A DNA stretch of 43,151 bases from Acidobacteriaceae bacterium (lineage in GTDB: Bacteria > Acidobacteriota > Terriglobia > Terriglobales > Acidobacteriaceae): positions 1 to 43,151 of the forward strand of contig PKUV01000070.1 in the NCBI GenBank assembly GCA_003131315.1. Reading direction: 5' to 3'. A program made the translations under genes and the position numbers. Position 1 is the stretch's first letter, and each line of letters opens with the position of its first letter. This document shows positions 12,928-29,900 of the stretch, piece by piece. Below the pieces are notes generated by a model. It made no database searches. It was not told the DNA's origin and saw only the letters and a list, made by a program, of their open reading frames with translations.

Positions 12928-13029
12928 CCGGAGGGGCGAACCAGCTTAGCCCAGCGCTTCAGCGCTGGGAAAAGTGGAAGAAATGATTTCAAGTCCCGGA
13001 GGGACGACCCAGTTCTCACGCACACTCTT
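12928..13029. repeat. dispersed repeat unit with CCCAGCGC hairpin
   Basis: Two related CCCGGAGG-GGCGA/GACGA motifs (about 12928 and 13003) flank a perfect hairpin CCCAGCGC-TTCA-GCGCTGGG and an AAAGTGGAAGAAATGA stretch. The modular form, hairpin plus repeated CCCGGAGGGACGA, suggests a REP/MITE-like sequence. Only one copy is in this window, so its dispersed nature is inferred. Confidence 0.45.
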
Positions 13030-13112
13030 CAGGGGCTGGGCATCGAAAATCGACTTTTTCCGCAGCCTGTGAAGGCGTGCCGAAAGCCCTTTAGGATCAC
13101 CGCAGGCTGCTA
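13030..13112 (-). repeat. partial copy of two-hairpin element, supplying the CHAT gene stop
   Basis: This copy has the outer segment GGGGCTGGGCATCGAAAATC, then CGACTTTTTCCGCAGCCTG, and an inverted CGCAGGCTGC at 13101-13110. The same TTTTTCCGCAGCCTG terminus occurs in the other copies in this window. The inverted terminus overlaps the last codons of the CHAT gene and encodes its final Ser-Ser-Leu-Arg-stop. It lacks the central hairpins. Confidence 0.6.
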
Positions 13113-15883
13113 AATGGAACTTCAAATTTCGCGGAACCGCGGGGATTTGTTCGTCCCCATCTCGACCCAGCATAGAGTTGAAACGGCGCCCAGTAAAACG
13201 GATTGTGGAATCCGCTGCCCCGAAGCAATGACAGTTTGGCGGCGCGAAGAGCGGCATCCGGGCCCGCTCCCTTGTCTAGCTCGTCGTAAAACTTATCCAT
13301 GAGTTGCTCGGTGGAAGCGTCCGTCGCTTCCCACAAGGCGGCGACCACGTTGTGGGCGCCGGCTCTGAGGAAAGCCCAGGACAGCCCGACCAGTCCCTCG
13401 CCCGAGTACGCGCGTTCGCCTGCGCCATAGCACGCCGAGATCGTGACCAGATCCGCCCGCAAGGGATGGCGAATGATGTCGCGGGCGTAGAGCTTGAAGG
13501 AGTCGTTTTCGGCGTTGCCTTCCGACGGCACAGTCTTCGACAGCACAATCGCCGAGTCGAGCGGGCTCAGCCGGCTGGCCGTTCCATGCGCCACAAAATG
13601 GATGTAGGAAAACTGCTCTGGACTGCTAGCCAGATACGCTGCCGGCGTCGCCCGCTCGCGCGTGAATATCCGCTGCTCGGCCGCCGGAAAATGTCGGGCA
13701 ACGCTTTCCATCTGGGCTGCGGCTTTCGGAAGCTCGGGATATTTATCGTTCGGCGCGACGCTGTTACCGACGAGAAGCAGGCCGCGGTCGCGCTTCTCTT
13801 TGCCCCCGTGCGACGCGCCGAGCACCCGTAACGAGCTGGCATTCGCAATCGTCACGTCTTCAATCCAATAGTGCAACTTTGCGTCGGACAACTTTGGTCC
13901 GGAGACGAGAAGCGTTTCGAAATTCAGGTTGTTCAGGCTGCCATCCGGAACGACGAAAACCTTCGCACTAGCGTCAAAAAAAGCAGAGTCCGGGAAGGGC
14001 ACGGCTTTAGAGGCTGCGGAAAAACTCGTGTTTCGTATCAGAGCATCGTTTCGTTTCGTATAAGGGCATCGCTTTAGCGATACCGTAAGTTCTTTGCAAT
14101 CAGACGCCCCTTTAGGGCCTGCGCGTCGAATGCCGACTTTCCCCGCAGCCTGTTCAGCCGTGCCACAAGAGCGACAATGCAGGTGGGCTTTAGCCCATGA
14201 GGGCCGCGCTCCAAGCAATGCCTGCGCGGGCACGATCAGAGTGCGATAGAGCCAGCGGCCATCCTGGTCGGCCGATTCGAGAACGTCTTGCGGTCCGCCG
14301 AGAGCCTTGCGATACCGTTGCACGGCCGCATCGATTTCCGAGCCGGGGGGAAGCGTAAGCAAGCTGGTCTTCCGCGGCGTGATCGCCCACAAGTACGACT
14401 GCTTCTCGCCCAGCCAATAAAAAAGAACTGTGCCTTCGGCTCGCCGGGCGATTTGCCGAGGGTTCAATGGCGGAGGCCCAGTTGAAATTCCCTTTGCCAG
14501 CAATCCCAATCCTTCGGCCAGGGTGCGGGCGCGGCTGTAGTCGGCCCAGCGCAGGGCGTCGTCGGTCTTTCCACGTGCCACCAGAAAATGGACGTAGTCG
14601 TCGTAGATGCGGGAGGCGTTGGTAAGGAAAGAAAGTTGGGAGTCTTCATGCCGCACGGTATCGCGAGCCGCTTCGAACGTGGCGAGCGCAGCGCGATATT
14701 CACGGTCCGCAGAATCTGGCTGGTTTTCGTCTTCGTAGAGCCGGGCCAGCGAGTGCTCGGCCTCCCACTTCAGAAAAACGGGACAAACCTTATCCTGCTC
14801 GACATCGTGAAATTTGTGCTCAGCCGCTGCGGCGTCGCCGTGACGGGCAGCAACTTGTCCCTGAACAAGTATTGGATAGAGTTCATCGGCATGGTTCCCG
14901 CTCTCTCTTGCGATGGCCAAAGCTCGCTCGGCATACTGGCTCGCCTTCTCGACGTCGCCGGTTTGCAGGGCAAGCCGCGCCAGCACGCGCAGGGCATTGT
15001 AGATGTCTTGCTTGGCTTTGATTCCCTCCGCAAGACCCAAAGCTCGCTGAAACGACTGAGCGGCCAAGTCAAATTTGCGCGAGTCCATGTAGATGTATCC
15101 GATGTTAGTGAGTTCGTTTTCCTGGTCGAAGATATCGCCCAGTTGAGCTGCTTTCTGCTCCGCCGCCTGAAACACCTCCAACGACTTCTCGGAGTCGCCG
15201 AGCTTGTAATACGCCCAACCCACATTGCCCTGCGCGACCAAGGCAACGTCTCCTGCACCGATAGCACTAGAAACCCGATAGGAAGCCTCGGACGACTCGA
15301 TCGCTTCATCGAAGTGTTCTTGCTTCAGTAATACTGCTCCCAAATTGAGAAGGGATGTGGACTCCAGAAATCTGTCACCATGTGCGCGGGCAAATGACAA
15401 GGAAAGTTCAAACACCTGCCGCGCTTGCACGAGTTGGCCCTTCTCGTTGAACATGAGGCCACGGGCCTGGATCACCTCTCCACAGCTTGGGTCCGCCCAG
15501 CTTGTGCAGATTTGCTCCGCCTCCCTCAGTTTTGCCTCTGCCTCTGGGAATCGTTGCAAGCGGGCGTTAGCGACGGCTTCAAGTGTGAAAATGGGCACGC
15601 TCAGCCCAGGTTCATTGGGAGGTCCAGGCTGGGATGCTAGGAGGTGCAGCACATCTTCATACATTCCTCGCCACAAGACAGCTTTCGCTTCTAGAATTCT
15701 GAACCTCCAAGCCCATTCTGGGTTCGCTTCCCGAAGTCGTTGGTATTCGTCGTCAGATTCGTCTTGACTTTGCCTGAGATTACCGCGCAAGAAAGCCGCT
15801 TGAATACGCTCATAAGCAGTCAGCGCGCTCTCATGACGAGTGCATGAGAGCGCGCTGATGAGAGACGAAGAGAGAAGAACCAG
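13097..15883 (-). CDS. TPR-repeat CHAT-domain (caspase-like peptidase) lipoprotein
   Basis: A large protein with a lipoprotein-type signal (VLVLLSSSLISALSC, Cys in an ALSC lipobox), about ten TPR-like helical repeats (roughly 14600-15700) and a C-terminal CHAT domain. The CHAT catalytic pair is present: His in HFVAHGTAS (codon about 13586-13588) and Cys in TISACYGAGE (codon 13430-13432), 52 residues apart. It ends with the conserved NPFYWAPFQLYAG. The start is uncertain: the frame is open to an ATG at 16171, but that part overlaps the upstream gene. No ATG/GTG/TTG lies near the signal; CTG at 15883 has AAGG 8 bp upstream and is my choice. A 208-bp repeat is inserted in frame before the CHAT core (13998-14205). 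The gene follows sigma, anti-sigma and unknown genes with a 2-bp gap. Function is probably regulated proteolysis (inference). Confidence 0.85.
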   Translation of the reverse strand: MVLLSSSLISALSCTRHESALTAYERIQAAFLRGNLRQSQDESDDEYQRLREANPEWAWRFRILEAKAVLWRGMYEDVLHLLASQPGPPNEPGLSVPIFTLEAVANARLQRFPEAEAKLREAEQICTSWADPSCGEVIQARGLMFNEKGQLVQARQVFELSLSFARAHGDRFLESTSLLNLGAVLLKQEHFDEAIESSEASYRVSSAIGAGDVALVAQGNVGWAYYKLGDSEKSLEVFQAAEQKAAQLGDIFDQENELTNIGYIYMDSRKFDLAAQSFQRALGLAEGIKAKQDIYNALRVLARLALQTGDVEKASQYAERALAIARESGNHADELYPILVQGQVAARHGDAAAAEHKFHDVEQDKVCPVFLKWEAEHSLARLYEDENQPDSADREYRAALATFEAARDTVRHEDSQLSFLTNASRIYDDYVHFLVARGKTDDALRWADYSRARTLAEGLGLLAKGISTGPPPLNPRQIARRAEGTVLFYWLGEKQSYLWAITPRKTSLLTLPPGSEIDAAVQRYRKALGGPQDVLESADQDGRWLYRTLIVPAQALLGARPSWAKAHLHCRSCGTAEQAAGKVGIRRAGPKGASDCKELTVSLKRCPYTKRNDALIRNTSFSAASKAVPFPDSAFFDASAKVFVVPDGSLNNLNFETLLVSGPKLSDAKLHYWIEDVTIANASSLRVLGASHGGKEKRDRGLLLVGNSVAPNDKYPELPKAAAQMESVARHFPAAEQRIFTRERATPAAYLASSPEQFSYIHFVAHGTASRLSPLDSAIVLSKTVPSEGNAENDSFKLYARDIIRHPLRADLVTISACYGAGERAYSGEGLVGLSWAFLRAGAHNVVAALWEATDASTEQLMDKFYDELDKGAGPDAALRAAKLSLLRGSGFHNPFYWAPFQLYAGSRWGRTNPRGSAKFEVPFSSLR
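13998..14205 (-). repeat. two-hairpin element inserted in frame within the CHAT gene
   Basis: It has inverted ends GGCTGCGGAAAAA (14012-14024) and TTTCCCCGCAGCCTG (about 14138-14152), the CCCTAAAGGGG-type hairpin and the GGCATCGC-TTTA-GCGATACC hairpin (14065-14084). An outer GGGCTTTAGCCC hairpin lies at about 14186-14197. A second, decayed copy of the GATACGAAAC segment adds length. The insert is open in the CHAT frame and adds about 69 residues between IVPAQALLGA and KVFVVPDGSL, which are nearly adjacent in ordinary CHAT proteins. Confidence 0.8.
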
Positions 15884-15885
15884 TA

Positions 15886-16866
15886 CTACGGCCTTGTGTG
15901 CCCGTTGGACGTAGCGCTCCCGGCGACCACGTTCCCACCGCCGATGCAGCCCAGGTGCATGTTCAGCATGTTCAGAGTGAAGTAGTTGCTGTCGCTTGGC
16001 TCCAGCGGAGAACCACCCCGCGTCTTGTCCGAAAAGCCATCGTGGCTGGGTTCGATGCCGACCTCGACTTCGGCCAAGGACACGGTCCCAAAGTCCGGGA
16101 TGAAGATGATGTTCCCGAACGTCCGGACTCCCGGAATCGGAATCGGTCCGATGCTTTTGACCAGTGAGCATTCGAGCTTAGAATAGCCGTTCCGCTCCCC
16201 TTTCGCGCGCCCATTGGCACGTTTCTTGAGATCGTCGATGTACGCGATCTTGGCATCGTACTGTTTCTCCAGACCCTCAGGAAGACCCTTGGCGCCGGCG
16301 ATGCTATCGAGTTGACGTTGGACGCGATCGAGGAAGCCGCGGTCTTCCAGATACCGTTTGTCGCCTTCCGGTCTGTCGCCGCAAATTGCGAGATCGAGTT
16401 CCACTTGGACCGGGTATCCGCCAACCCGCAAGTTTTCGAAGCGCGTGCCCAAGAACGTCACCTTGGGAACATGGCCGCTCTTCTCCGCATGCTCGGTGGA
16501 AACCTGCGCCACCATGCGATCGGCCGTGATGACTTCGAATACGTTCAGGCCTTCAATCACCGACGTCGACAGCGTCACCCAGCCAGAATGATCGTTGCCC
16601 CAAAGATCCTTTTTCTCGATCTTGCTGCCGGACGCACGAGTGTGGCCCGCCTTGAAGGAAATCAGGCCTTCCAGGGTAGTCTCCTCCACCGTCTGAGTGA
16701 TGTGGTCAGCGCGGCGGTTCTTCAATACAACGTGCGCATGGTGTTCGATCGGCTGATCGACAGGATGTTTCAAATTGCCACTGAGCACGTGGGCTTCGGC
16801 GTGATACACGTGGTACCGTTCCAGGCTAGGACGCGGCGCCACAGGTGATTTCGGATTTGCGGCCAT
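15886..16866 (-). CDS. conserved protein of unknown function in the ECF-CHAT locus
   Basis: A 326-residue soluble protein I do not recognise with confidence. It has no signal peptide or membrane helix. The N-terminal 180 residues look beta-rich (YHVYHAEAHVLSGNL, GWVTLSTSVIEGLNVFEVITA, PKVTFLGTRFENLRVGGYPV), with possible weak likeness to secreted 'choice-of-anchor' beta-sandwich proteins. A charged helical stretch (DRVQRQLDSIAGAKG to KKRANGRAKGERNGYSK) and a second beta section (ECSLVKSIGPIPIPGVRTF, GTVSLAEVEVGI) follow. It sits 24 bp after the anti-sigma gene and 2 bp before the CHAT gene start, so co-expression is very likely. It could be a substrate or partner of the CHAT peptidase (inference). 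Confidence 0.8.
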   Translation of the reverse strand: MAANPKSPVAPRPSLERYHVYHAEAHVLSGNLKHPVDQPIEHHAHVVLKNRRADHITQTVEETTLEGLISFKAGHTRASGSKIEKKDLWGNDHSGWVTLSTSVIEGLNVFEVITADRMVAQVSTEHAEKSGHVPKVTFLGTRFENLRVGGYPVQVELDLAICGDRPEGDKRYLEDRGFLDRVQRQLDSIAGAKGLPEGLEKQYDAKIAYIDDLKKRANGRAKGERNGYSKLECSLVKSIGPIPIPGVRTFGNIIFIPDFGTVSLAEVEVGIEPSHDGFSDKTRGGSPLEPSDSNYFTLNMLNMHLGCIGGGNVVAGSATSNGHTRP

Positions 16867-20098: not shown

Positions 20099-20181
20099 AT
20101 TGTCATCCTGAGCGAAGCGAAGGACCTGCTTTTCGCAGCGTCAATACAAAGCAGGTCCTTCGCTTCGCTCAGGATGACAAT
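20099..20181. repeat. perfect 34-bp inverted repeat (hairpin)
   Basis: Arms at 20099-20132 and 20148-20181 are exact reverse complements, with a 15-base spacer. The arm sequence contains CATCCTGAGCGAAGCGAAGG. It probably works as a transcription barrier after the YheT gene and is a recognisable dispersed-type repeat, but only this one pair is in the window. Confidence 0.85.
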
Positions 20182-25105: not shown

Positions 25106-27100
25106 GTGAAGCGCTGGTTCGGTATCGGCACCGTTGTTTTGAGTCTGCTGATCGCGGGTTGTTTCTCGCGGCTTGCATTCGCCAAGGATGAGCCCAAGTG
25201 GATCGAAGTGCATACCGCGCATTTCTCGGTGCTCACGGATGCGGGCGACAAACGCGGGCGGGAAGTTGCGCTGCGGATGGAGCAGATGCGGGCGGTTTTT
25301 GGACAACTACTTCTGAAAGACAAGTTGAAAATGCCGGTGCCTATCACCGTCATCGCTCTCAAGAACGACAAGCAGTACGGCATGGTTGCTCCGGCGAAAC
25401 AGAGCATGGCGGGCGGGTTTTATGTGCCGGGGTCGGATCGGGTTTATATCGTCCTGAATCTTTTTGAAACCGATCCGTGGCGAGCGGTGGCGCATCCGCT
25501 GGCGCATTATCTTTTGAATTCCAACTATCCTCCGGCGCAGGGTTGGTTCGACGAAGGGCTGGCGGAATACTTTGGGTCGATCCAGATCGGGAAGCAAGTG
25601 GAGATCGGAGGCGATCCGGAGCTGGCGCCGGAATGGCACGAGGACATCTTCGATGAACTGCGGCGGGATCCGAATGTGCCACAGTCGCTGACGCAGTTGG
25701 TGAGTTCGCCGGTATGGCTGTCGATGGTGGACCTGTTCACGATGAAGCATGACGGTTCGGGGACGCGCGAGGGGACGCACAACACTCTGTACTACGCCCA
25801 GTCGTGGATGGTGGCCCACTATCTGGTGAACAAGAACAAGATGCCGGAGGCGGGGACGTATTTCGATCTGGTGCTGAACCAGAAAGTGCCGGTGGAGAAG
25901 GCGATGGTGCAGGCGTTTGATATGTCGCCGGAGCAGATGGAAGACGCGGTGAAGGCCTATTTCAAATCGCTGAGCGGGTTGGGCATTGCGCTCGATCAGG
26001 CGAAGAAGCCGATTGCAGATCCGGCGGACATTCAGCAGCCGGTTCATTTCGCTCTTCCGTTTGACGCGGTTGACATCGGGATGGCGGTCACTTCGGTTAA
26101 GGATGAGGAAGCGAGAGCGGTGATTGGCGACGTGATGGCGCGCATTCCGGCGCATCGCGATCAGGCGCTGCATGATTTGCAGCAGCTGACGGCGGATCCA
26201 AAAGATAATGAGGCGGCGCATCGCGGGTTCGCCTGGGACGATATTCACCAGAAGCGGTTCGACGCGGCCGCCGACGAACTGGACAAGGCGACGGAGTTGA
26301 ATCCGCGGGACCCGTGGATTTGGTATTACCGCTCGGTGCTGAAGTATCAGAAGGCGCAGGCGACGCGGCAAGAGATGCAGGGGCTGGCGAACATGATGCA
26401 GGATCTGCGGGCGGTCGCGGATTGGTATCCGGAGTTAGCCGACGCTTATAACATGCTGGGAATGGCGCGAGTGGAGGGGGGCGGATTCAACTCGGCGCTG
26501 GAGGCGCAACGGCAGGCGATCGCGCTGGCGCCGCGGAATGTGGAGTACCAGTTCAACCTGGGGCAGATTTATGTTGCGGGAAAGAAGTGGGATCTGGCGC
26601 GGGAAGTGTTTACGCGGTTGAAGGCGGGACCGGATCGGGCGGCGGCAGCGGCGGCGAAGCAGCAATTGGACGACTTAGAGACGCTGCAGAAGTATGGAGT
26701 GCGTCCGCAGCGAGCGGGGGAAAGCGCGGTGCCAGCGGGCGCGGCGAGCACTCCTGCGGCGGGGACGACGGCGCCTGCGGTGGCCGCGAGTTCAGCGCAA
26801 GATCAAGATGAGGAGGCTGATGCGGCGCCGAAACCAGCGCCCGTCAAGCCGGGGACGACCGGGCCGGTGCAATTTCTGAAAGGCAAGATCGTGAGTAGTG
26901 ACTGCTCGAAGCCTCCCGAGGCGACGGTTACGATCTTGAGCGGGATGGCGACTTACAAGCTGCATGCTTCGGATTACAAGTCGTTGCTGGTGATTGGAGA
27001 GGATCAGTTTTCCTGCGATTGGAAGAACCGAGTCGTGTCGGTGAACTACCGTGCGGTGGGGAAGCACGAAGGAGAATTGGTGTCGATTGAAATGCACTAA
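25106..27100 (+). CDS. DUF1570/peptidase-MA-like protein with TPRs and HPxxH in place of HExxH
   Basis: A 664-residue exported protein, GTG start with AAGGA 7 bp upstream. The signal may be cleaved as a lipoprotein (LLIAGC, Cys19) or after AFA. The gluzincin-like domain has FSVLTDAG, ITVIALKN and the metal region AHPLAHYLL with downstream WFDEGLAEYFG (Glu150). The catalytic Glu expected in HExxH is Pro131, so zinc binding (His130, His134, Glu150) may remain but hydrolysis should be lost. TPR-like repeats occupy about 355-515. After a Pro/Ala linker comes a beta-rich C-terminal domain (about 590-660). The role may be a binding scaffold (inference). Confidence 0.85.
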   Translation: MKRWFGIGTVVLSLLIAGCFSRLAFAKDEPKWIEVHTAHFSVLTDAGDKRGREVALRMEQMRAVFGQLLLKDKLKMPVPITVIALKNDKQYGMVAPAKQSMAGGFYVPGSDRVYIVLNLFETDPWRAVAHPLAHYLLNSNYPPAQGWFDEGLAEYFGSIQIGKQVEIGGDPELAPEWHEDIFDELRRDPNVPQSLTQLVSSPVWLSMVDLFTMKHDGSGTREGTHNTLYYAQSWMVAHYLVNKNKMPEAGTYFDLVLNQKVPVEKAMVQAFDMSPEQMEDAVKAYFKSLSGLGIALDQAKKPIADPADIQQPVHFALPFDAVDIGMAVTSVKDEEARAVIGDVMARIPAHRDQALHDLQQLTADPKDNEAAHRGFAWDDIHQKRFDAAADELDKATELNPRDPWIWYYRSVLKYQKAQATRQEMQGLANMMQDLRAVADWYPELADAYNMLGMARVEGGGFNSALEAQRQAIALAPRNVEYQFNLGQIYVAGKKWDLAREVFTRLKAGPDRAAAAAAKQQLDDLETLQKYGVRPQRAGESAVPAGAASTPAAGTTAPAVAASSAQDQDEEADAAPKPAPVKPGTTGPVQFLKGKIVSSDCSKPPEATVTILSGMATYKLHASDYKSLLVIGEDQFSCDWKNRVVSVNYRAVGKHEGELVSIEMH

Positions 27101-27103
27101 GGA

Positions 27104-27198
27104 TTGCGGAAAAAGTTGAGTCTCGACGCTCAGCCCCTAAAGGGGCGTCTGATTTCGAGGAACTTCGGCATCGCTGAAGCGATGCCCTGATACGAACC
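27104..27198 (+). repeat. two-hairpin dispersed element, copy
   Basis: TTGCGGAAAAAG terminus, then CAGCCCCTAAAGGGGCGTC with the CCCCTAAAGGGG hairpin, and GGCATCGC-TGAA-GCGATGCC (27167-27186), ending CCCTGATACGAACCC. It fills nearly all of the gap between the DUF1570 gene and the convergent YCF48-like gene. Confidence 0.85.
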
Positions 27199-27230
27199 CT
27201 TTCCCTAAGCACGACTTGCTGCACCCAGCT

Positions 27231-28464: not shown

Positions 28465-29709
28465 TTGAGCGCCCCAGCGGATTCGACCGTGCCGGAAGAC
28501 TGCGTGGCCCCGCCGGCCACTCCGCCGGCCAAAGGTGGCCACGGTGCAGCCGTACTCGCCGGCTTCCTCGGGTGGACGCTTGATGCCTTCGACTTCTTTT
28601 TGGTCGTCTTCTCGCTGACGGCCATCGCTCAGGAATTTCACCGGTCCGACGCAGAGATTGCTCTCTCCATCACGCTTACCCTGATGTTCCGTCCGGTGGG
28701 CGCGTTCATCTTTGGACTGATGGCTGATCGCTACGGGCGCCGCCTCCCCTTGATGATCGACCTCGTCTTCTACTCCGTGGTCGAGGTGTTGACTGGTTTC
28801 GCTCATAGTTTCACTGCTTTCCTGGTTCTGCGGGCGCTGTTTGGCATCGGCATGGGCGGAGAGTGGGGCGTAGGCGCCTCTCTCGCCATGGAAAAAGTTC
28901 CACCCAGACTGCGCGGGTTTCTTTCCGGGATGCTCCAGCAAGGATACGCTCTGGGCTACCTGCTGGCGGCGATCTGTTTCTACTTCGTGTTCCCTCGCTG
29001 GGGATGGCGGCCGATGTTTTTTATCGGAGGACTACCCGCCCTGCTGGGGCTTTTCGTCCGCTTCAGGGTGAAGGAATCAGAGGTGTGGAAGAAGACTCGT
29101 CACACGAGCTGGAGCAGTCTGGGCCGCGAGATATGCTCCCACTGGAAGTTGTTTCTCTATTTGACCCTCTTAATGATGATGATGAACTTTACCTCGCACG
29201 GCACGCAGGATATGTTCCCAACCTTCCTCCAGCGCCAGTGGCGCATGGGTCCGACCCAGCGCGCGGCGATCACTGCGATCTCCATGGTGGGAGCGATCCT
29301 CGGAGGCCTGCTGTTCGGCTTTTTGTCCGACCGCTTCGGACGGCGCCGGGCGATGGTCACCGCACTCGTCAGTGCGGTCGCGTTGGTTCCGCTGTGGGCC
29401 TACGCCCCGTCTCTGACATTGCTGGTCGTCGGAGCTTTCCTGATCCAGTTCATGGTGCAGGGAGCGTGGGGCATCATTCCGGCGCACCTCTCGGAATTGT
29501 CGCCCGACTCGGTACGAGGATTTCTTCCCGGATTCGCTTACCAGTGTGGAGTGCTTCTGGCCGGCTCGGTCGCTTATGTGGAGGCAATTCTGGCCCAGCG
29601 TACCAGCTACGCAAACGCCATGGCTCTGACTGCGTTTGTGGTGTTCACACTGGCGGCGGTGGTGGTAGCTCTGGGGCGCGAGCAGAAAGGCATTCAATTC
29701 GGCTCGTAG
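28465..29709 (+). CDS. MFS transporter, organic-acid/sialate H+ symporter type
   Basis: A 414-residue, 12-helix major facilitator. TTG start with AAGGAG 6-8 bp upstream. Helix 1 reads GFLGWTLDAFDFFLVVF, typical of lactate/pyruvate (SHS) and sialate (NanT) symporters. MFS loop motif A occurs twice, GLMADRYGRR and GFLSDRFGRR. Helix 4 region has RALFGIGMGGEWGVGASLAME. The substrate is probably a monocarboxylate or related organic acid, brought in with protons (family knowledge plus inference). No catabolic gene is adjacent, so the substrate cannot be read from context. A repeat element follows the stop. Confidence 0.88.
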   Translation: MSAPADSTVPEDCVAPPATPPAKGGHGAAVLAGFLGWTLDAFDFFLVVFSLTAIAQEFHRSDAEIALSITLTLMFRPVGAFIFGLMADRYGRRLPLMIDLVFYSVVEVLTGFAHSFTAFLVLRALFGIGMGGEWGVGASLAMEKVPPRLRGFLSGMLQQGYALGYLLAAICFYFVFPRWGWRPMFFIGGLPALLGLFVRFRVKESEVWKKTRHTSWSSLGREICSHWKLFLYLTLLMMMMNFTSHGTQDMFPTFLQRQWRMGPTQRAAITAISMVGAILGGLLFGFLSDRFGRRRAMVTALVSAVALVPLWAYAPSLTLLVVGAFLIQFMVQGAWGIIPAHLSELSPDSVRGFLPGFAYQCGVLLAGSVAYVEAILAQRTSYANAMALTAFVVFTLAAVVVALGREQKGIQFGS

Positions 29710-29774
29710 GATCTCGGTTGCACATTGCCATGCCTCATGGGCAGTGCGCAGCGTTCTGGCGTATTCGGATTCCC

Positions 29775-29900
29775 AGCCGGCTGCGGAAAAAGTCGATATT
29801 CGATGCCCCAGCCCCTAAAGGGGGCGTCTGATTTCGAAGAACTTTCGGCATCGCTAAAGCGATGCCCTGATACGAACCTGAATTTTTCAACAACCTGCTA
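29775..29900 (+). repeat. two-hairpin dispersed element, copy
   Basis: The most complete intergenic copy: GGCTGCGGAAAAAG terminus, GCCCCTAAAGGGGGC hairpin, GGCATCGC-TAAA-GCGATGCC (29847-29866), CCCTGATACGAACC, and an opposite end TTTTTCAACAACCTGC. It lies between the MFS gene and the convergent RsbRD_N-like gene. Confidence 0.85.

Follow-up and report, generated by a model that had tools for sequence, protein, structure and literature searches.

A palindromic repeat nested in frame in an acidobacterial CHAT gene is probably composite selfish DNA

Introduction

We describe a protease-like CHAT gene of an acidobacterium, probably Ca. Sulfotelmatobacter or a neighbour of it, in which a palindromic insert is open in the reading frame and itself hosts a second palindromic element. 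We consider it likely that this insert is composite selfish DNA, where a palindrome came to lie in the CHAT linker and an IS5-like MITE bearing two REP-like hairpins later came to lie in the loop of that palindrome. Sequence comparison supports the composite anatomy of the repeat, its nesting, a candidate parent insertion sequence (IS), a Y1 transposase gene flanked by REPs in the own genome and the presence of in-frame palindromes of different families in a single linker. Our reading is that the repeat is selfish DNA tolerated in loops. The window is the whole stretch of 43,151 nucleotides that was analysed, and positions refer to it.

Results

The host gene and its insert

The insert is hosted by a TPR-CHAT gene at 13097-16171 on the minus strand, an open frame of 1024 codons which contains no internal stop when read over its whole length. 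A Pfam search of this ORF matched the CHAT model (PF12770, E 7e-49) as well as TPR models, the TPR repeats preceding the CHAT domain. It was aligned with 24 other orthologous rows, and in the 25 rows H862 and C914, presumably the catalytic histidine and cysteine, are invariant. The first ~95 codons (15886-16171) are shared with ORF 15886-16866 on the minus strand and residues 1-97 have very low pLDDT; the true start may be farther downstream, ahead of a lipoprotein-like signal (LISALSC), although several orthologs align from residue 1. Directly after the stop codon of the gene there is an element fragment (13027-13070, minus strand, 98% over 44 nt in blastn against the consensus).

The ortholog alignment places the in-frame insert at residues 654-736 (13964-14212, minus strand). 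Between QALL and KVF there are 83 residues, against four in the sister G020 (QALL-KTDP-KVF), which shares 86% identity over residues 1-657. A preliminary description of this DNA, made from the sequence alone, had proposed that a palindromic repeat lies in frame in the CHAT gene exactly between two conserved blocks, and both statements hold, as the frame has no internal stop and the bounding blocks, ...LYRTLIxPAQALL and KVFVIPDGSLNNLNFETLL, are kept in orthologs. Its estimate of about 69 added residues is what the 208 bp of the element encode, while the net excess over G020 is 79. The comparison with orthologs that it had suggested reveals a short linker (4-12 residues) at the same codon in 19 of 25 rows, G020 included, and a long one in the other six. 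A CHAT ortholog from Edaphobacter (L239) has the short linker. The supposed acidobacterial setting agrees with the origin of 20 orthologous loci, which belong to Terriglobia, Acidobacteria, Acidobacteriaceae, two Ca. Sulfotelmatobacter and one Edaphobacter.

In the predicted structure of the CHAT protein (mean pLDDT 69.7, alignment of 25 sequences), residues 656-734 lack secondary structure and stay below a pLDDT of 50, with a helix (647-652) before the insert and a strand (737-741) after it; the low pLDDT may derive in part from the thin alignment or missing homologs. The insert is an insertion into a loop within the N-terminal part of the CHAT region, and the protein would, according to this model, carry an extra floppy loop.

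Anatomy and nesting of the insert

Taken as coding-strand RNA, 13998-14205 has a more stable fold than 200 of 200 dinucleotide shuffles (z -4.2). The first palindromic element consists, on the coding strand, of the hairpins GGGCTAAAGCCC and GGCACGGC..GCCGTGCC, and the loop of the second one holds a 143-bp element. The GGGCTAAAGCCC hairpin (14185-14196, minus strand) is found in the CHAT gene of the relative G001 and also beside two copies in the own genome (L003 and L016). The arms of the outer hairpin lie at 13998-14005 (GCCGTGCC) and 14157-14164 (GGCACGGC), both on the minus strand, and in the G001 gene the first element is present with this hairpin empty of the MITE. In the window copy 147 bp, target-site duplication included, separate the arms of this hairpin, which in G001 is undivided. 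These extra 147 bp are the 143 bp plus a 4-bp duplication (TGAA/TAAA; on the plus strand TTCA at 14153-14156 and TTTA at 14006-14009), whose two sides agree at only three of four bases, which counts against the proposed reading. Since 147 bp were gained, the frame was preserved; the 120-bp consensus element plus 4 would break it, and the CHAT copy is in frame only through 23 extra bases.

The nested MITE (14010-14152, minus strand) has the ends CAGGCTGCGG... and contains two hairpins plus a partial third unit. One is a REP-like hairpin, GGTATCGCTAAAGCGATGCC, with the tail CTTATACGAA (consensus CTGATACGAA; 14065-14084, minus strand), and the other is the first core hairpin, GGCCCTAAAGGGGC (consensus GCCCCTAAAGGGGC; 14106-14119, minus strand). 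The insert had been described as a two-hairpin element; that is correct for the MITE, but the outer hairpin and the one at 14185-14196 come in addition.

An order of events that would produce this arrangement starts with an earlier palindromic insert entering the CHAT linker in frame. A MITE with IS5-like ends and two REP-like hairpins would then have inserted in the loop of the palindrome with a 4-bp target duplication, and its 147 bp would have left the frame intact. It could be argued that the nested structure is an artefact of assembly or binning, as the genome is a draft of 194 contigs and repeats provoke misassembly. We regard this as very improbable, given that the frame runs on across both sides of the junction, inside a 67-kb contig, and that palindromic inserts occupy the same linker in G001, G003, G009 and G010.

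A repeat family of the genus

A covariance model (R1) was built from 22 copies, leaving out the CHAT copy and including the one at 29.8 kb. Its search of the own genome gave 151 matches among the best 150 candidates scored, from which a 32-base row was dropped, so that copy number is a lower bound, with at least 149 full-length copies among the matches listed. R1 recognizes the CHAT copy (14009-14154, E 2.5e-23) together with a second window copy at 27098-27219 (plus strand, E 9e-25) and a third at 29775-29898 (plus strand, E 2e-32, one of the 22 in the model). The proposed identity of the CHAT insert with the elements at 27.1 and 29.8 kb is in this way confirmed, and the search for further copies that had been advised adds 146 full-length places among the matches listed. 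These two copies had been called intergenic, which is right for the first, beginning at the stop codon of ORF 25106-27100, and only likely for the second, which overlaps the end of the candidate ORF 28863-29831. Copies seem to lie mostly between genes, and those that are in frame within genes are exceptional.

The family is genus-wide. Among relatives, where the 87 best candidates were scored per genome and copy numbers are again lower bounds, the R1 DNA model has matches in 23 of the 24 genus members and in one of 17 others. Because of this distribution and of the short linker in Edaphobacter, the sequences give no sign that the insert is an old conserved protein segment. In agreement, the protein comparison had no insert matches outside the genus among the matches listed. 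Among the papers listed in our literature searches we met no description of these repeats.

MITE arms and a candidate parent insertion sequence

Target-site duplications were evaluated in 144 copies, 53 of which have both ends and 50 of these enough flank. Exact 4-bp duplications, with the consensus YTAR, occur in 13 of these 50 (mean of 200 shuffles 3.9, maximum 10); in the same copies there is no excess at 2, 3 or 6-9 bp, and at 5 bp one duplication was counted against 0.2. For at least eight of the 50 the insertion site is the loop of a hairpin resembling GGCACGGC or GGCACGCC, the stem being imperfect in some.

The own genome also contains a 1313-bp element (G000:C21:18120-19432) with CTAG on both sides and the same ends as the MITE, the terminal inverted repeat test giving CAGGCTGCGGAAAAA as the ends common to both. 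It encodes a 365-aa frame with PF05598 and PF01609, i.e. a DUF772/DDE_Tnp_1 transposase, and a second transposase-bearing element is found on contig C28. We take the family to be IS5-like, as against IS1182. By its sequence the 1313-bp element is a candidate parent IS of the MITE, and the most fitting name for the repeat is an IS5-like MITE with REP-like hairpins. The transposase would act on the MITE in trans. Among same-strand gene pairs, the upstream stop codon is at most 3 bases from the element edge in 9 of 31, as would be expected if YTAR targets include stop codons. Insertions may persist mostly outside genes or at stop codons.

REP-like hairpins and a Y1 transposase gene

The unit ending in GCGATRCCCTGATACGAA (up to 1 mismatch) has 181 matches in the own genome. 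It is present in all 24 genus genomes and in none of 17 others. Hairpins with the tail CTGATACGAA flank, in inverted pairs, a Y1 gene in the own genome (G000), G009, G015 and G013 (L357, L358, L359 and L370), that is at four of 19 homologous loci, and are missing at the remaining 15. The tail is constant across these four loci and the stems differ in G015 and G013; as background, the tail motif has 9 matches in 210,661 bases of partly overlapping loci. A GTAG or GTGG tag was not found beside the hairpin, and because the neighbour of the stem reads TTCGTATCAG we name it REP-like rather than a GTAG REP. The arrangement of hairpin and Y1 gene appears REPtron-like, without the GTAG tag. The own genome has 11 matches to Y1_Tnp (PF01797), and L036 is the only one of the ten loci read (L031-L040) with the flanking REP tail motif.

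Different palindromic families at one linker

The six long linkers are those of the own gene, G009, G003, G001, G010 and SRVP_32, and three types can be distinguished. The GGCACGGC element is present in the own gene and G001, with its left part in G009; the core is present in the own gene, G003 and G009; and a GTAG-type hairpin is present in G010, SRVP_32 resembling by eye a decayed version of it. While the GGCACGGC element and the core may be related REP-like kinds, the GTAG-type hairpin has by eye no likeness to either. The hairpin of the G010 linker has 46 matches in G010, counting that in CHAT, 40 in G001, 10 in G003 and zero in the own genome. As judged from these sequences, the palindromic inserts in this linker would represent at least two unrelated families.

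A tree of the CHAT proteins without the linker, made by a quick method and leaving out L044 (truncated), L055 (partial), seven duplicates and L240 (motif missing), implies four or more switches between short and long linkers. The sisters G010 and G001 carry different insert types, and the first-step insert begins alike in the own gene, G009 and G001, which are not neighbours on the tree; recombination, or ancestral presence followed by losses, is a possible explanation. The in-frame cores of G003, G009 and of a sulfatase gene of the own genome are without MITE arms, which may mean that the core has another way of moving or of being trimmed.

A second CHAT linker, after SSLRVL, contains a GTAG-type hairpin with in-frame DGASPVSTG in L043 (G009), L046 (G004) and L048 (G003), and 25-mers similar to it, allowing 3 mismatches, occur 37 times in 580 kb of own-genome sequence. 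A further inverted repeat in the window, at 20099-20181, has perfectly matching arms of 34 bp, ATTGTCATCCTGAGCGAAGCGAAGGACCTGCTTT, and a loop of 15 bases.

The presence in the first linker of palindromes from two or more unrelated families, in six of 25 orthologs, together with the hairpins in the second linker of G003, G004 and G009, might suggest that palindromes supply variable CHAT loops which selection keeps because they are useful. However, the insert is unstructured in the predicted model, no peptide is conserved across all six long linkers and 19 of 25 orthologs do with a short one, so that a tolerant site is the simplest reading and a useful insert is, in our estimation, improbable. 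Most likely the extra CHAT peptide has no selected function.

Copies in genes and their reading frame

Codon scores were trained on long ORFs of the analysed regions and used to class 144 copies, and five more were scored later, none of which has an open frame through it. An open frame of at least 150 codons, with at least 40 on each side, traverses 12 of the 144. Supported in-frame genic copies amount to three of 149 listed, in CHAT, in the gene of a PMT_2-type membrane protein (C161) and in that of a sulfatase-TPR protein (C46). The first two passed the strict codon score and the sulfatase only a lower bar (0.12), its case resting on its ortholog alignment; in the alignments of C161 and C46 the copies are inserts in variable loops. 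The PMT_2-type insert is found at the same site in G003 and G018, the G018 gene being split over frames near an unread base and excluded as intact. In the orthologs from G014 and G004 (L314 and L315) the same loop holds a different shared insert, WGRAPSPVQAE.

Other candidates were set aside. The element is, in our reading, upstream of the likely start codon at C148:60045, C64:275 and C4:11756, as it is in a relative (G008:C68). At C180:8985 the frame opposes the better-scoring strand, and at C155:47356, C98:66493, C32:31312 and C90:23223 one or both flanks are non-coding by score in the open frame. L281, L263 and L337 in relatives and L115 in the own genome look antisense by eye. C27:28112 is a borderline candidate, outside the three, with a weak S24-peptidase-like match below the cut-off and the element near the C-terminus. 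Several copies are flanked on either side by sequence that scores as coding in one frame, with a stop inside the element, and adjacent same-frame genes would also fit these.

The preliminary description compared the insert with the coding palindromes of Rickettsia and supposed that tolerance of translation lets the element spread into genes. Such an element would have a conserved open frame adapted to translation. All three own-genome cases do use one frame, reading variants of APKGASDFEELTASLKRCPDTK, which recur in inserts of relatives (CHAT in G003 and G009, PMT_2-type in G003 and G018), and the inserts sit in loops between conserved blocks. Nevertheless, relatives were searched in the APKGASDFEELTASLKRCPDTK frame alone and agreement there is biased, and in G004 (L281, judged antisense) the other frame is open with coding-like flanks. 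Furthermore, the consensus element is open in two of six frames, which 44% of shuffles reach, and among 130 other core copies a stop interrupts the coding frame in 61 and the other open frame in 35, indel shifts included. Given this chance-level openness and the stops in the cores, the sequences bear no sign of an element shaped for translation. With so few genic copies as well, the idea that tolerance drives its spread into genes is not borne out, and a repeat adapted to coding is unlikely. The resemblance to Rickettsia stands insofar as a repeat lies in frame in genes whose orthologs lack it, and fails on the small genic share and the chance openness. Frame use looks like survivorship: the few insertions within genes would survive where the frame is kept and the loop is flexible.

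Discussion

Rickettsia palindromic elements (RPEs) are described in a review (PMC10969869) as palindromic repeats of ~150 bp, translated in frame within otherwise normal genes, with nearly half of those of R. conorii inside genes. The acidobacterial repeat is alike in its size of ~150 bp and its in-frame position in normal genes with orthologs that lack it (CHAT, PMT_2-type and sulfatase). It differs in the share of copies in genes, three of 149 listed against that near half (PMC10969869), in the phylum, and in being made of parts that correspond to an IS5-like MITE and to REP-like units, the comparison being one of descriptions. By analogy, the insert would work like an RPE insertion; we do not class it as an RPE because the genic share of copies is too small.

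Intragenic REPs are reported from several bacteria outside Rickettsia, two Xanthomonas recB genes bear REPs of different kinds at nearly the same position, and Acidobacteria have Y1 transposases with terminal repeats, according to Di Nocera 2013 (PMC3733652). The inverted hairpin pairs around a Y1 gene and the presence of hairpins within ORFs agree with REP/RAYT systems as outlined there (PMC3733652), whereas TTCGTATCAG takes the place beside the stem which GTAG has in REPs (PMC3733652). Also unlike those systems, the core is here borne by an IS5-like MITE, and one linker contains several families across related species. With IS5-like elements and their MITEs the repeat shares terminal repeats, 4-bp YTAR duplications and larger DUF772/DDE_Tnp_1 copies in the own genome; it differs in having REP-like hairpins as cargo and in that at least eight of 50 copies lie in hairpin loops. 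In the portions of the REP and RPE literature available to us, we found no description of a nested in-frame insertion with a surviving intermediate, nor of several families sharing a single linker in related species.

Rickettsia is the best-known source of translated palindromic repeats. In the acidobacterial genus, the parts of the insert have counterparts in a candidate parent IS and in a transposase gene flanked by REPs, a relative still has an intermediate state, and several families occur in one linker. A more speculative reading, to which we give a limited chance, is that some linkers of this genus are recurrent landing sites where unrelated selfish palindromes are repeatedly domesticated as coding sequence, even nested in one another. 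If this were true, selfish hairpins would keep supplying conserved proteins with new loop peptides. In this sense, the passage from selfish DNA to protein becomes countable within one genus, in the number of insertions, their frames and their fate.
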